Positions 12,950 to 53,920 of a stretch of DNA of 64,000 nucleotides are shown piece by piece. Positions within the stretch are counted from its first letter, which is position 1. Each line of letters starts with the position of its first letter. The translations under genes were made by a program, and so were the position numbers. The notes below the pieces were generated by a model that saw nothing but the letters and a program-made list of their open reading frames with translations, was not told the origin of the DNA and searched no databases. Where the stretch lies: NCBI RefSeq assembly GCF_016804325.1, contig NZ_CP043627.1:4709001-4773000 (forward strand), written 5' to 3'. Origin of the DNA: Methylobacterium aquaticum. Its GTDB lineage: Bacteria > Pseudomonadota > Alphaproteobacteria > Rhizobiales > Beijerinckiaceae.

Positions 12950-13378
12950 ATGGCGAACAAACGAGCCCTGTCCTGGTCGGTGGCGATGCGGGACATCCAG
13001 AACGACCGCGCGAGGAGAATGGACGTGCGTGAGGAGCGCCTGAGAACGGCCTCGAGCCTGCGCGGCACCCCGGCCCTGCCGCTGAGTGCCTGGCGCGGCC
13101 AGTCCGGCCGCCGCTACGTGGTGGGGATCCACGCCCTCGACGACGATCCGGCGGAGGTCGGCGAGGCGGTGGTGATCGCGGTGCGCCGCGGCGGCGACGG
13201 CACCGCCGAGCTGGTGGCGGTGGCCGCCGCCGGCGAGAGCCCGCGCGAGCGACTCGCCCGCGGCTGGCTCACCCGCGCCCGGGCCCGTGGCGCGACCGAG
13301 ATGCATGTCCACCGCTTGGCCGAGGACGCCGCGGCGCGCCGCGCCGTGGTGGCGGATCTCGGCGGCGTGTCGGCGTGA
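12950..13378 (+). CDS. Hypothetical protein
   Basis: An ORF of 142 residues with protein-like codon usage and the compact middle section SAWRGQSGRRYVVGIHAL (about residues 46-63), followed by an acidic/Ala-rich alpha-beta region. I recognise no family. The start is uncertain: ATG 12950 is the longest; an ATG at 13019 after GAGGAGA would remove 23 residues. Its TGA stop (13376-13378) is the left target-site duplication of the 123-bp element that follows, so the element inserted exactly in the stop codon without altering the protein. Confidence 0.6.
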   Translation: MANKRALSWSVAMRDIQNDRARRMDVREERLRTASSLRGTPALPLSAWRGQSGRRYVVGIHALDDDPAEVGEAVVIAVRRGGDGTAELVAVAAAGESPRERLARGWLTRARARGATEMHVHRLAEDAAARRAVVADLGGVSA

Positions 13379-13501
13379 TACCAACGGTCGTTGGAAACGA
13401 CCTTTGGTTCCGTTCTCGAATTTTCGTCGAGCCTCTGGCTTGGCATAGACAATTCGAGATGGCTCAAGGGCCCGATGCGTCGGCATCTTGGGCCATTGGT
13501 A
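13379..13501 (+). mobile_element. 123-bp MITE-like element, copy 1
   Basis: A non-autonomous element with inverted ends TACCAACGG and CCATTGGTA, flanked by a TGA duplication (13376-13378 and 13502-13504). Copies of identical length are at 26926-27048 and 53576-53698, differing at about six positions. Internal hairpins: GGTCGTT-GGA-AACGACC; CTCGAATTTTC with (GA)CAATTCGAG enclosing GAGCC/GGCTT; and GATGC-GTCG-GCATC. Base composition is much less GC-rich than the surroundings. There is no transposase nearby. TNA duplications are typical of the IS1031 group of the IS5 family, so a full-length relative may mobilise it (inference). Confidence 0.85.
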
Positions 13502-13511
13502 TGAGGCGTCG

Positions 13512-14477
13512 TCAGTAGATCGGGCCGGACGACCAGGTCGGGCTCGAGAGCGGCAGCGGCTCCGGAAGGGCCCGCGGCTCGGCGATCATCGCCGGCCGCG
13601 CCGGCGGCGGGACGTAGGCGTGGACCGGCGCAGGGGAGGGCGAGCGGGCGACCTTGGTCGCGGTCTCCCGGGCGCTCGTCGGCGACAGGCCGTAGGGATC
13701 GTCCTGCTCGACGTCGATCGGCGCCGGCTCGGGGGCCGGCTGCCAGGCCGGCGGCTTCCTGCGGATCGGCGAGAGCGGCGTACCGGGGGGCGGCAGGCGC
13801 GATTCGTACTTGATCAGCGGCTTGCAGATCCGGCGCAGGCCCCGGGGATCGTGCCGTGCCAGATCGAGATGCAGGTGGTCGTAATGGTAGACGTTCGACC
13901 CCGGCGCCAGCACGGTCGTGAAGTGGTTGCACGCCCCCAGGAACACCTCGCGCAAGAAGCCCTGCTCGGCTTCCGTGCCGCGCCAGCCGCCCTTCACCGT
14001 CACCACGTAGCCGTCGGCGAAGCGGAAGGACATCACGTCGACGGCGTTGCCGAAGGAATGCTCCGAGAGCTTGGCGCCGACCTGGTTGTTGCGGCCGCGG
14101 CAGGAATACGAGCCGGAATTCATCTCGACCACCGGCTGGCCGAAATAGATCTCGGCCGCCGGCTGCACCGTGCCGGCGAGCCAGGCCTCGACCTCCGGGA
14201 TGATCGGGCAGGCCAGCGTCATGCGCTGCTTGAGCGCCACCGTCCCGCCGGCGAGCCGCGTGACCCGGAACGGATGCACCATCCCGCACACGCCCGGCCC
14301 GTCGATCTCCTTGACGGGCTGGATGTCCTCGCTCGGACGAACGAGTTTCTGGGCGAGGCAGACCTCTTCGGCCTGATTCCGCCACGGTTCGCGCTGCTCA
14401 AACCGGTTGAGCGCGCATCCGGTAAGCCCCAGGCCGAAAAGCGTGAAGGCTGAGAACGCTACGATGCCACGACGCAT
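13512..14477 (-). CDS. Extensin-family lipoprotein
   Basis: A protein of 321 residues from ATG 14477. A lipoprotein signal peptide ends in LTGC with the lipidated Cys near residue 21. The bacterial extensin-like C-terminal domain follows: GPGVCGMVHPFRV, MTLACPIIPEVEAW, and SEHSFGNAVDVMSF with the conserved His and Asp, then YHYDHLHLDLA. The fold resembles metal-dependent D,D-peptidases, so a cell-wall role in the periplasm is plausible but unproven. The C-terminal quarter is Pro-rich and disordered. An upstream GTG (14495) is possible but gives a worse signal peptide. Confidence 0.85.
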   Translation of the reverse strand: MRRGIVAFSAFTLFGLGLTGCALNRFEQREPWRNQAEEVCLAQKLVRPSEDIQPVKEIDGPGVCGMVHPFRVTRLAGGTVALKQRMTLACPIIPEVEAWLAGTVQPAAEIYFGQPVVEMNSGSYSCRGRNNQVGAKLSEHSFGNAVDVMSFRFADGYVVTVKGGWRGTEAEQGFLREVFLGACNHFTTVLAPGSNVYHYDHLHLDLARHDPRGLRRICKPLIKYESRLPPPGTPLSPIRRKPPAWQPAPEPAPIDVEQDDPYGLSPTSARETATKVARSPSPAPVHAYVPPPARPAMIAEPRALPEPLPLSSPTWSSGPIY

Positions 14478-26817: not shown

Positions 26818-26925
26818 GGCGGCCCCGCTCCCCGGGAGGGGCGTGCCGTACCGCGCGGCGGGAATCCGGGGTGCATCGGGTGGACTGCCGTGCTCGGGTG
26901 GGGACAATGCGGGGGTGCCGCTTTA

Positions 26926-27048
26926 TACCAACGGTTGTTGGAAACGACCATTGGTTCCGTTCTCGAATTTTCATCAAGCCTCTGGCTTGGCATAGAAAAT
27001 TCGAGATAGCTCAATGGCCCGATGCGTCAGCATCTTGGGCCATTGGTA
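26926..27048 (+). mobile_element. 123-bp MITE-like element, copy 2
   Basis: Same length, orientation and ends as the copy at 13379 (TACCAACGG ... CCATTGGTA), with TTA duplications at 26923-26925 and 27049-27051. Relative to copy 3 I count about six substitutions. One (GGTT for GGTC) turns a C-G pair of the first hairpin into a U-G wobble, so the fold is kept. It lies upstream of comF, about 110 bases from its likely start, and could influence its promoter. Confidence 0.85.
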
Positions 27049-27142
27049 TTAGTGGTGACCATTTCCGGTGCGGAAGGCATTGCAGCCCGGCATGAGCCGG
27101 CGCGAGAATAAGCACAACGAGAGCCACGGAGAGGAAACGGTC

Positions 27143-53486: not shown

Positions 53487-53575
53487 TCAAGACTATCCGT
53501 TGGAAGGTCGGGCCCGCGTCGTGCGCAGGGCGAGGGATGCGGAGAGGCCCCGCATCCCGGGTCGTGGGGCCGTTA

Positions 53576-53698
53576 TACCAACGGTCGTTGGAAACGACCT
53601 TTGGTTCCGTTCTCGAATTTTCGTCAAGCCTCTGGCTTGGTATAGAAAATTCGAGGTGGCTCAATGGCCCGATGCGTCAGCATCTTGGGCCATTGGTA
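53576..53698 (+). mobile_element. 123-bp MITE-like element, copy 3
   Basis: Third copy, same orientation and length, with TTA duplications at 53573-53575 and 53699-53701. On the minus strand the right-hand duplication reads TAA and is the stop codon of the cold shock gene, so the element inserted exactly in that stop codon. The hairpins GGTCGTT/AACGACC, CTCGAATTTTC/GAAAATTCGAG with CAAGCC/GGCTTG inside, and GATGC/GCATC are all perfect in this copy. Confidence 0.85.
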
Positions 53699-53920
53699 TT
53701 ACGCGGCGCGCAGGTTGCCGGCGGATTGCTTGCCGCTGCGACGGTCGGTCTCCATCTCGTAGGAAATCTTCTGTCCTTCCGAGAGAGTCTGCATGCCCGA
53801 CCGCTCGACGGCCGAGATATGCACGAACACGTCCTTGCCGCCGTCATCCGGCTGGATGAAACCGAAACCCTTTTGCACGTTGAACCACTTCACGGTGCCG
53901 ATCGTCATCGTCGTATCCAT
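53699..53920 (-). CDS. Cold shock protein, CspA family
   Basis: A cold shock domain protein of about 73 residues, binding single-stranded RNA and melting secondary structure. RNP1 (KGFGFIQPD) and RNP2 ([10 protein letters not shown]) motifs are intact after GTVKWFNVQ. The start is ATG 53920 or ATG 53908 (MTIGTVKWF); a longer frame from 53950 adds residues unlike the family. The TAA stop is one copy of the 3-bp target duplication of the adjacent element. The 350 bases upstream to 54272 hold no gene and probably include a structured leader, as is usual for cold shock genes. Confidence 0.88.

Follow-up and report, generated by a model that had tools for sequence, protein, structure and literature searches.

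The window analysed here, a 64,000-nucleotide stretch of the Methylobacterium aquaticum genome (7.28 Mb), has a G+C content of 71% and contains three copies of a MITE. All are 123 bp long, carry the ends TACCAA...TTGGTA, and are flanked by 3-bp duplications of TGA, TTA, and TTA, as was described in an earlier note on this DNA. The note had also recognized that the left TGA of copy 1 is the stop codon of the upstream gene, and this triplet indeed ends the called 132-aa gene (Table 1). The product of the gene has no Pfam match, and the stretch is conserved up to a TGA in the closely related genome G023, with 83% DNA identity over 683 aligned columns. Within the window, copies 1 and 3 target called stop codons, and copy 2 is intergenic. 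The nearest called gene end is located 389 nt from copy 2, which makes it a misfit to the stop-codon pattern.

Table 1 Positions of the MITE copies, hairpins, and neighbouring genes within the window.
Feature	Positions	Strand	Description
Called 132-aa gene	12980..13378	+	Stop codon is the target of copy 1
Left target duplication of copy 1	13376..13378	+	TGA, stop codon of the upstream gene
MITE copy 1	13379..13501	+	123 bp, ends TACCAA...TTGGTA
Hairpin H1	13380..13408	+	12 pairs; terminator-like stem 13386-13402, then TTTGGTTCCG
Hairpin H2	13415..13458	+	12 + 6 pairs; copy 1 is without two outer-stem pairs kept by most relatives
Hairpin H3	13465..13498	+	14 pairs, five with double changes
Right target duplication of copy 1	13502..13504	+	TGA
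Called convergent neighbour gene	13512..14282	-	Stop codon at 13512-13514, TCA in plus-strand reading
MITE copy 2	26926..27048	+	123 bp; TTA duplications at 26923-26925 and 27049-27051; intergenic
MITE copy 3	53576..53698	+	123 bp; TTA duplications at 53573-53575 and 53699-53701
Called 69-aa gene	53699..53908	-	Minus-strand stop codon (TTA) is the target of copy 3; short, low-scoring call

A search of the whole genome with two arm patterns gave 75 left-arm and 70 right-arm matches, which merged into 79 places containing full or partial elements, mostly 93–100% identical to the consensus. An exact 50-base left-arm pattern had no match in the genome_contigs collection. Identical flanking triplets were found at 61 of the 79 places, and every one of them is TNA (along the element 23 TAA, 20 TGA, 12 TCA, and 6 TTA), so the duplications noticed at the window copies recur throughout the genome. 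Permutation of the right flanks among the copies yielded, on average, 18.8 and at most 31 identical triplets out of 79. Sixteen of the 18 places without an identical TNA pair keep TNA on at least one side. The length of the 61 elements is 123 bp in 57 cases, 124 bp in two, and 122 and 138 bp in one each. Some copies carry a right module of another kind or measure 107 and 137–170 bp. In three variants (L053, L057, and L067) a different long palindrome takes the place of the right hairpin, which suggests a modular make-up. Since two pairs of places (3511/6974758 and 14861/6986110) share their flanks at a nearly equal offset, the ends of contig 1 are probably redundant, with about 17 kb repeated (L069, L137). 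The element is present in 20 of 111 genomes of the genus, including that of the window (E <= 0.001), and all three plasmid records with the same element are from Methylobacterium. Its small size and numerous near-identical copies are those of a MITE, as is the combination of target duplications with empty sites, which were seen at both places read in G023.

To classify the targets, TNA-flanked copies were removed in silico, and genes were then called with our own gene caller, a fourth-order codon-phase model trained on long GC3-rich frames. The exclusion of the 18 places without identical TNA and of one duplicate left 60 non-redundant copies, the targets of which are exactly a stop codon in 37 cases, intergenic in 23, and coding in none. 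Over the 0.91 Mb covered, the remaining TNA sites comprise 646 stops, 3944 intergenic sites, 320 sites at starts, and 12336 sites inside genes. The premise of the earlier note that TNA triplets are concentrated at stop codons therefore does not hold, as stops represent 646 of 17246 TNA sites. The overlap of the copies with stops nevertheless exceeds the null expectation, as the note had anticipated: 37 of 60 targets are stops, compared to 646 of 4590 non-coding TNA sites (14%, p=5e-17). Within 100 nt downstream of genes, stops make up 37 of 50 occupied sites and 646 of 1785 others (p = 1e-7). Four thresholds of the caller gave 37, 37, 36, and 32 stops, with p from 4e-15 to 5e-17. Our caller yields a coding fraction of 0.76, lower than the 84% that PMC2680597 states for the chromosomes of M. 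extorquens, so a share of the null sites counted as intergenic probably falls in genes that the caller missed, and the stop ratio is inflated as a result. The duplicated triplet pre-dates the insertion, and therefore an in-frame TAA or TGA at the target was already the stop. Pfam domains were detected in nine of the ten stop genes tested, the exception being the gene upstream of copy 1, and several of the domains reach the C-terminus (FlgG-type, FAA hydrolase, G6PD). In the annotated record of M. nodulans plasmid pMNOD02, a gene for a sterol desaturase has as its annotated stop the TTA that one copy has duplicated; three of the five places found on plasmids were examined, and the copies at the other two do not coincide with an annotated stop. 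Overall, about half of the copies examined coincide exactly with a gene's stop codon.

Two of the insertion sites are empty in G023. At the positions of copies 2731177 and 2733298, G023 contains a single TCA, which is the stop of minus-strand genes at both sites read. Beyond the stop at the 2731177 site the G023 sequence also differs in that a second repeat is present in the window's genome. A palindromic repeat of ~180 bp (L100:5719-5898) adjoins copy 2731177, and its ~37-base core occurs at high identity in at least several relatives. At the site corresponding to that of copy 1, it is instead the stop of the convergent neighbour that is occupied in G023, by a related element whose flanking triplets, TCA and GCA, are one base apart. 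Each of the two species thus has its own insertion here, at adjacent stops.

No insertions were found at the 941 TNA sites located within the last 45 nt of coding sequences, although the rate seen at stop codons would predict 15.9. A co-directional gene starts less than 50 nt behind 2 of 65 occupied stops and 246 of 1040 unoccupied ones (p=2e-5). Both depletions fit the purging of insertions that alter a protein or part closely spaced genes. The proposal that insertion into a stop codon, with duplication of the triplet, rebuilds the stop is thus supported by the 37 stop targets, the empty sites, and the lack of coding hits close to gene ends.

The target preference extends beyond TNA. The flanks favour G or C at positions -1 and +1, A or T at -2 and +2, G at -3, and C at +3, which corresponds to the symmetric motif GWS-TNA-SWC. 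Furthermore, TAA/TTA triplets are preferred (28 of 60 targets, 1339 of 17250 null sites). A matrix trained on the intergenic targets alone predicts 10.6 of 60 copies at stops in the window's genome, where 37 were observed. In four related genomes taken together, 28 of 67 usable copies target stops, compared to 15.9% of non-coding sites (p=4e-7), with 18/41 in G004, 1/7 in G071, 5/12 in G031, and 4/7 in G063; without adjustment, neither G071 nor G031 (p=0.12) reaches significance. The 67 copies are what remained of 100 left-arm copies after removal of 30 without a recognized TNA pair and 3 without gene context, and one of them is called inside a gene. The left-arm matches taken were 60 of 143 in G004, 7 of 49 in G071, 16 of 21 in G031, and 17 of 20 in G063. 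When adjusted for motif, triplet type, and local A+T content, the odds ratio for a stop is 9.8 (3.8–25) in the window's genome, 1.84 (0.92–3.69, p=0.09, not significant) in the relatives, and 3.6 (2.1–6.2, p=3e-6) in the pooled data, in which the odds ratios are 3.1 per matched base of the motif and 5.9 for the TAA/TTA preference. Much of the stop effect is accounted for by the motif, and what excess remains is well supported in the window's genome alone. Local A+T richness was considered as a cause of the stop targets and rejected (pooled odds ratio 0.75 per 10%). A REP-like palindrome, considered as a favoured target away from stops, is located near 20 of 127 targets and 829 of 7511 null sites. 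The concentration of copies at stops stems from the wider motif, the TAA/TTA preference, and, as we infer, the purging of harmful insertions.

In 48 of the 65 copies at stops, window's genome and relatives combined, the gene is on the side of the left end (p = 1.5e-4). In the window's genome alone, the corresponding numbers are 29 of 37 at stops and 13 of 23 at non-stop targets. The 29 of 37 looked directional and suggested terminator function, an explanation that was dropped because non-stop targets, once further copies are included, are equally biased: 42 of 62 read TAA or TGA into the left end (p = 0.007; p = 0.56 against the stops). Any stop of TNA form is TAA or TGA in the direction of its gene, and the orientation bias therefore follows from the asymmetric reading of the target. 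It is target asymmetry and not function.

The element contains three hairpins, H1 to H3. Their covariation was evaluated in an alignment of 27 of 28 sequences picked from 96 full-length copies, with one sequence left out due to an indel. The hairpin positions are paired in 96.6% of cells across these diverse copies from different species, and changes on both sides occur in 13 of 44 pairs, in 33 cells compared to 6.0 in shuffles, which ignore the relatedness of the sequences. In contrast, the six pairs of the terminal repeats contain one double-change cell, and their inner pair is unpaired in 9 of 27 copies. Because the terminal repeats show so little covariation, the alignment indicates that the hairpins are kept independently of the element ends. 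The stem of H1 that resembles an intrinsic terminator, together with TTTGGTT, starts 8 nt past the stop on the plus strand only, and 0.2 such occurrences are expected in shuffles. An Rfam covariance-model search of six loci with E up to 1 gave four matches, none of them on the element. In G105, a long open frame closes with a TGA, and right behind this triplet lies an isolated H1-like hairpin (L058:1501-1543), with the rest of the element absent. The surroundings of this stretch were checked for a second end, as it might have been an IS end, and none was seen.

A search with the end pattern, as proposed in the earlier note, identified an IS with the same terminal repeats. It is 1175 bp long and occupies two places in G071, which are 99.4% identical, with TAA duplications at both. 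Its ends are TACCAACGGCC and TACCAGTGGCC or TACCATTGGCC, and its two overlapping ORFs both belong to the IS630 family (NF033545, 150.6 and 103.8 bits; PF13358). The window's genome contains 11 matches to the DDE part of this IS, seven of which are near full length with 88–89% identity; the three copies read whole are 1175 bp long and 99.9% identical to each other. Each end of the MITE shares 11 of the 12 terminal bases with the matching end of the IS from the same genome, and the similarity between MITE and IS is limited to about 12 bp at each end. Both ends were recognized, with no demand on the flanks, at 14 of 30 IS loci, where pairs of ends were accepted by us at >=13/20 matching bases and eight weaker and eight endless loci were set aside. 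TNA is present on both sides in all 14, and the two triplets are identical in 11. The three exceptions are copies from the window's genome (L374, L387, and L396) with the chain-like flanks TAA/TGA, TGA/TTA, and TTA/TCA, perhaps resulting from recombination between copies. Eight copies of the IS630-type ISs were tested for their targets; one had called genes on both sides, and its target was not a stop. IS630 elements usually duplicate TA, whereas the MITE duplicates 3-bp TNA. In a TAA triplet, a 3-bp duplication may go unnoticed behind the outer TA; the TGA and TCA triplets and the empty sites settle 3 bp for the MITE. A TNA-duplicating branch of IS630 would be the unusual part of the system. 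As judged from the shared ends, the MITE is most likely moved in trans by the IS630-family transposase of the same-ended IS.

The earlier note had pointed to IS5-family elements of the IS1031 group. The TNA duplication agrees with this assignment, and the genus has IS5-type ISs with TNA duplications, such as a 927-bp IS in G071. However, the IS5-type ISs of the genus have other ends, for example GAGTCTGTCC and GAGCGCCTAAC, and the ends of the MITE were found on IS630-family elements instead. No IS with MITE ends was found at 10 PF13340 loci of the window's genome, where one MITE copy lies near the L035 transposase, and none was recognized at 60 PF01609/PF13586 loci in six genomes, where the lone end-like matches were a MITE copy (L266) and single right ends (L229, L247). 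We therefore regard membership in the IS1031 group as highly improbable. The copies of the 927-bp IS (L283-L287, L291, and L292) have TNA duplications and the ends GAGTCTGTCCGGG, and two of them, L284 and L285, are inserted in CCTCATCCTGAGGTG sequence that was also hit by MITE copies. Among 20 regions with IS5-type TNA elements, nine had recognized ends and seven were classifiable, a small number, with none at stops.

ISAli3 and its relatives, IS630-like elements from plasmids of Azospirillum, Paracoccus, Skermanella, and Rhodovastum, have TACCA ends like the IS of the window's genome and are, unlike the MITE, autonomous. Their DNA identity to that IS is 67–70% over about 85% of its length. 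Identical TNA flanks (five TAA and one TCA) were present in six of the seven related plasmid ISs read, three of which are ISAli3; the seventh, from Sinorhizobium, does not have identical TNA flanks. These seven come from 152 matching plasmid records, and candidate ends were scored higher for identical flanks and for a TACC terminus. IS870 from Agrobacterium belongs to the IS630 family, and its insertion also involves a stop codon, but it completes the stop of its own transposase gene at CTAG, whereas the MITE restores the stop of a host gene. REPs are tied to other transposases. Like the MITE, REP sequences are dispersed palindromic repeats beside genes; the REP's own end supplies the stop according to PMC3733652, while the duplicated target of the MITE restores that of the gene. 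REPINs are likewise short, mobile, and hairpin-forming, with common compensatory changes, but they are REP doublets linked to RAYT, and neither TNA duplication nor stop targets are described in the consulted part of PMC3116915. RUP of Streptococcus pneumoniae resembles the MITE in being short and non-autonomous, with IS630-like ends and many intergenic copies; it is 107 bp long, its proposed mobilizer is IS630-Spn1, and its targets contain TA (PMC2229807). The MITE differs in duplicating TNA and in its position on stops. ERIC of enterobacteria is MITE-like and co-transcribed with upstream genes, and its hairpin can alter mRNA stability depending on orientation; it is not placed on stop codons in the sections of PMC2229807 consulted, and the orientation bias of the MITE is explained by its target. 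MiniMdi3 from M. extorquens is a MITE of the same genus, about 400 bp long and related to ISMdi3, and MITEs are few in that species, with 4 and 8 in two strains (PMC2680597). A literature search of titles and abstracts returned no description of the element or of stop-codon insertion by target duplication.

Based on these observations, a mechanism of insertion can be proposed. The element is a non-autonomous MITE, most likely mobilized by IS630, that duplicates TNA and rebuilds the stop, with its distribution probably shaped by motif, selection, and an excess specific to the window's genome. The engine would be an IS630-family enzyme acting in trans on the MITE ends. Insertion duplicates the 3-bp TNA target, and at a stop codon the duplication rebuilds the stop. 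The targets prefer GWS-TNA-SWC, favour TAA/TTA, and more often read TAA or TGA into the left end. Stops would be over-represented because they match the motif better than the average TNA site, because insertions into coding sequence or between closely spaced co-directional genes are presumably lost, and because of an additional, unexplained stop excess in the window's genome. The three hairpins, one of which is terminator-like and directly follows the stop, may terminate or protect the transcript and so allow such insertions to be tolerated. The idea of stop-codon insertion put forward in the earlier note thus stands, while its IS family and its premise on TNA density do not.

The size of the stop excess bears on two opposite alternatives. 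The local motif might alone account for the stop targets without any stop-specific effect, as suggested by the non-significant adjusted effect in the relatives and by the strong pooled odds ratios for motif and TAA/TTA. We consider this unlikely, since the matrix predicts far fewer stop targets in the window's genome than the 37 observed and the pooled adjusted odds ratio remains 3.6. Conversely, the ends of genes might be actively targeted beyond sequence preference, through transcription, translation-free RNA, supercoiling, or a protein. In the window's genome, the adjusted odds ratio of 9.8 at the stop is followed by 3.9 (1.25–12.4) for the next 30 nt, and rates drop from the stop to distant 3′ and divergent regions, which argues for such targeting. 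However, the adjusted effect is not significant in the relatives, the lack of insertions just upstream of stops fits selection equally well, and none of the seven classifiable IS5-type TNA elements is at a stop, although these depend on a different enzyme. Active targeting of gene ends is quite improbable on this evidence.

Copies at stops might also have been retained for a function, as a portable terminator or an mRNA 3′ stabilizer. The terminator-like stem just past the stop on one strand only and the covariation of the hairpins, not shared by the terminal repeats, are consistent with this, and a polar terminator could explain why copies are scarce in close tandem genes. However, orientation, which would be the clearest sign of such a function, shows the same bias at non-stop targets, the identity to the consensus is no higher for copies at stops than for others (96.5% vs 97.3%), and covariation could also arise from a DNA-level constraint or from template-switch repair of palindromes. 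Retention for function therefore appears doubtful. A more far-reaching idea, which we offer as speculation and do not expect to hold, is that a branch of IS630 that cuts TNA with a 3-nt stagger became, via the MITE, a stop-codon specialist, with a hairpin that replaces the displaced terminator. If this were true, the motif and the pull to gene ends seen in the window's genome would make stops a standing safe harbour.

The MITE bearing on stop codons described here is an ordinary kind of element with an unusual target, combining TNA duplication with heavy presence on restored stops. It represents a simple and countable way for a transposable element to spread in a gene-dense genome and leave the proteins unchanged, choosing a target that reads as a stop and duplicating it. 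Now that a likely partner IS has been identified, the respective shares of target choice and subsequent selection can be tested directly. The existence of an IS630 branch that duplicates TNA would alter expectations of target cutting in the Tc1/mariner-like superfamily. The many natural insertions of a stop plus hairpin are on offer for the study of bacterial transcript 3′ ends.
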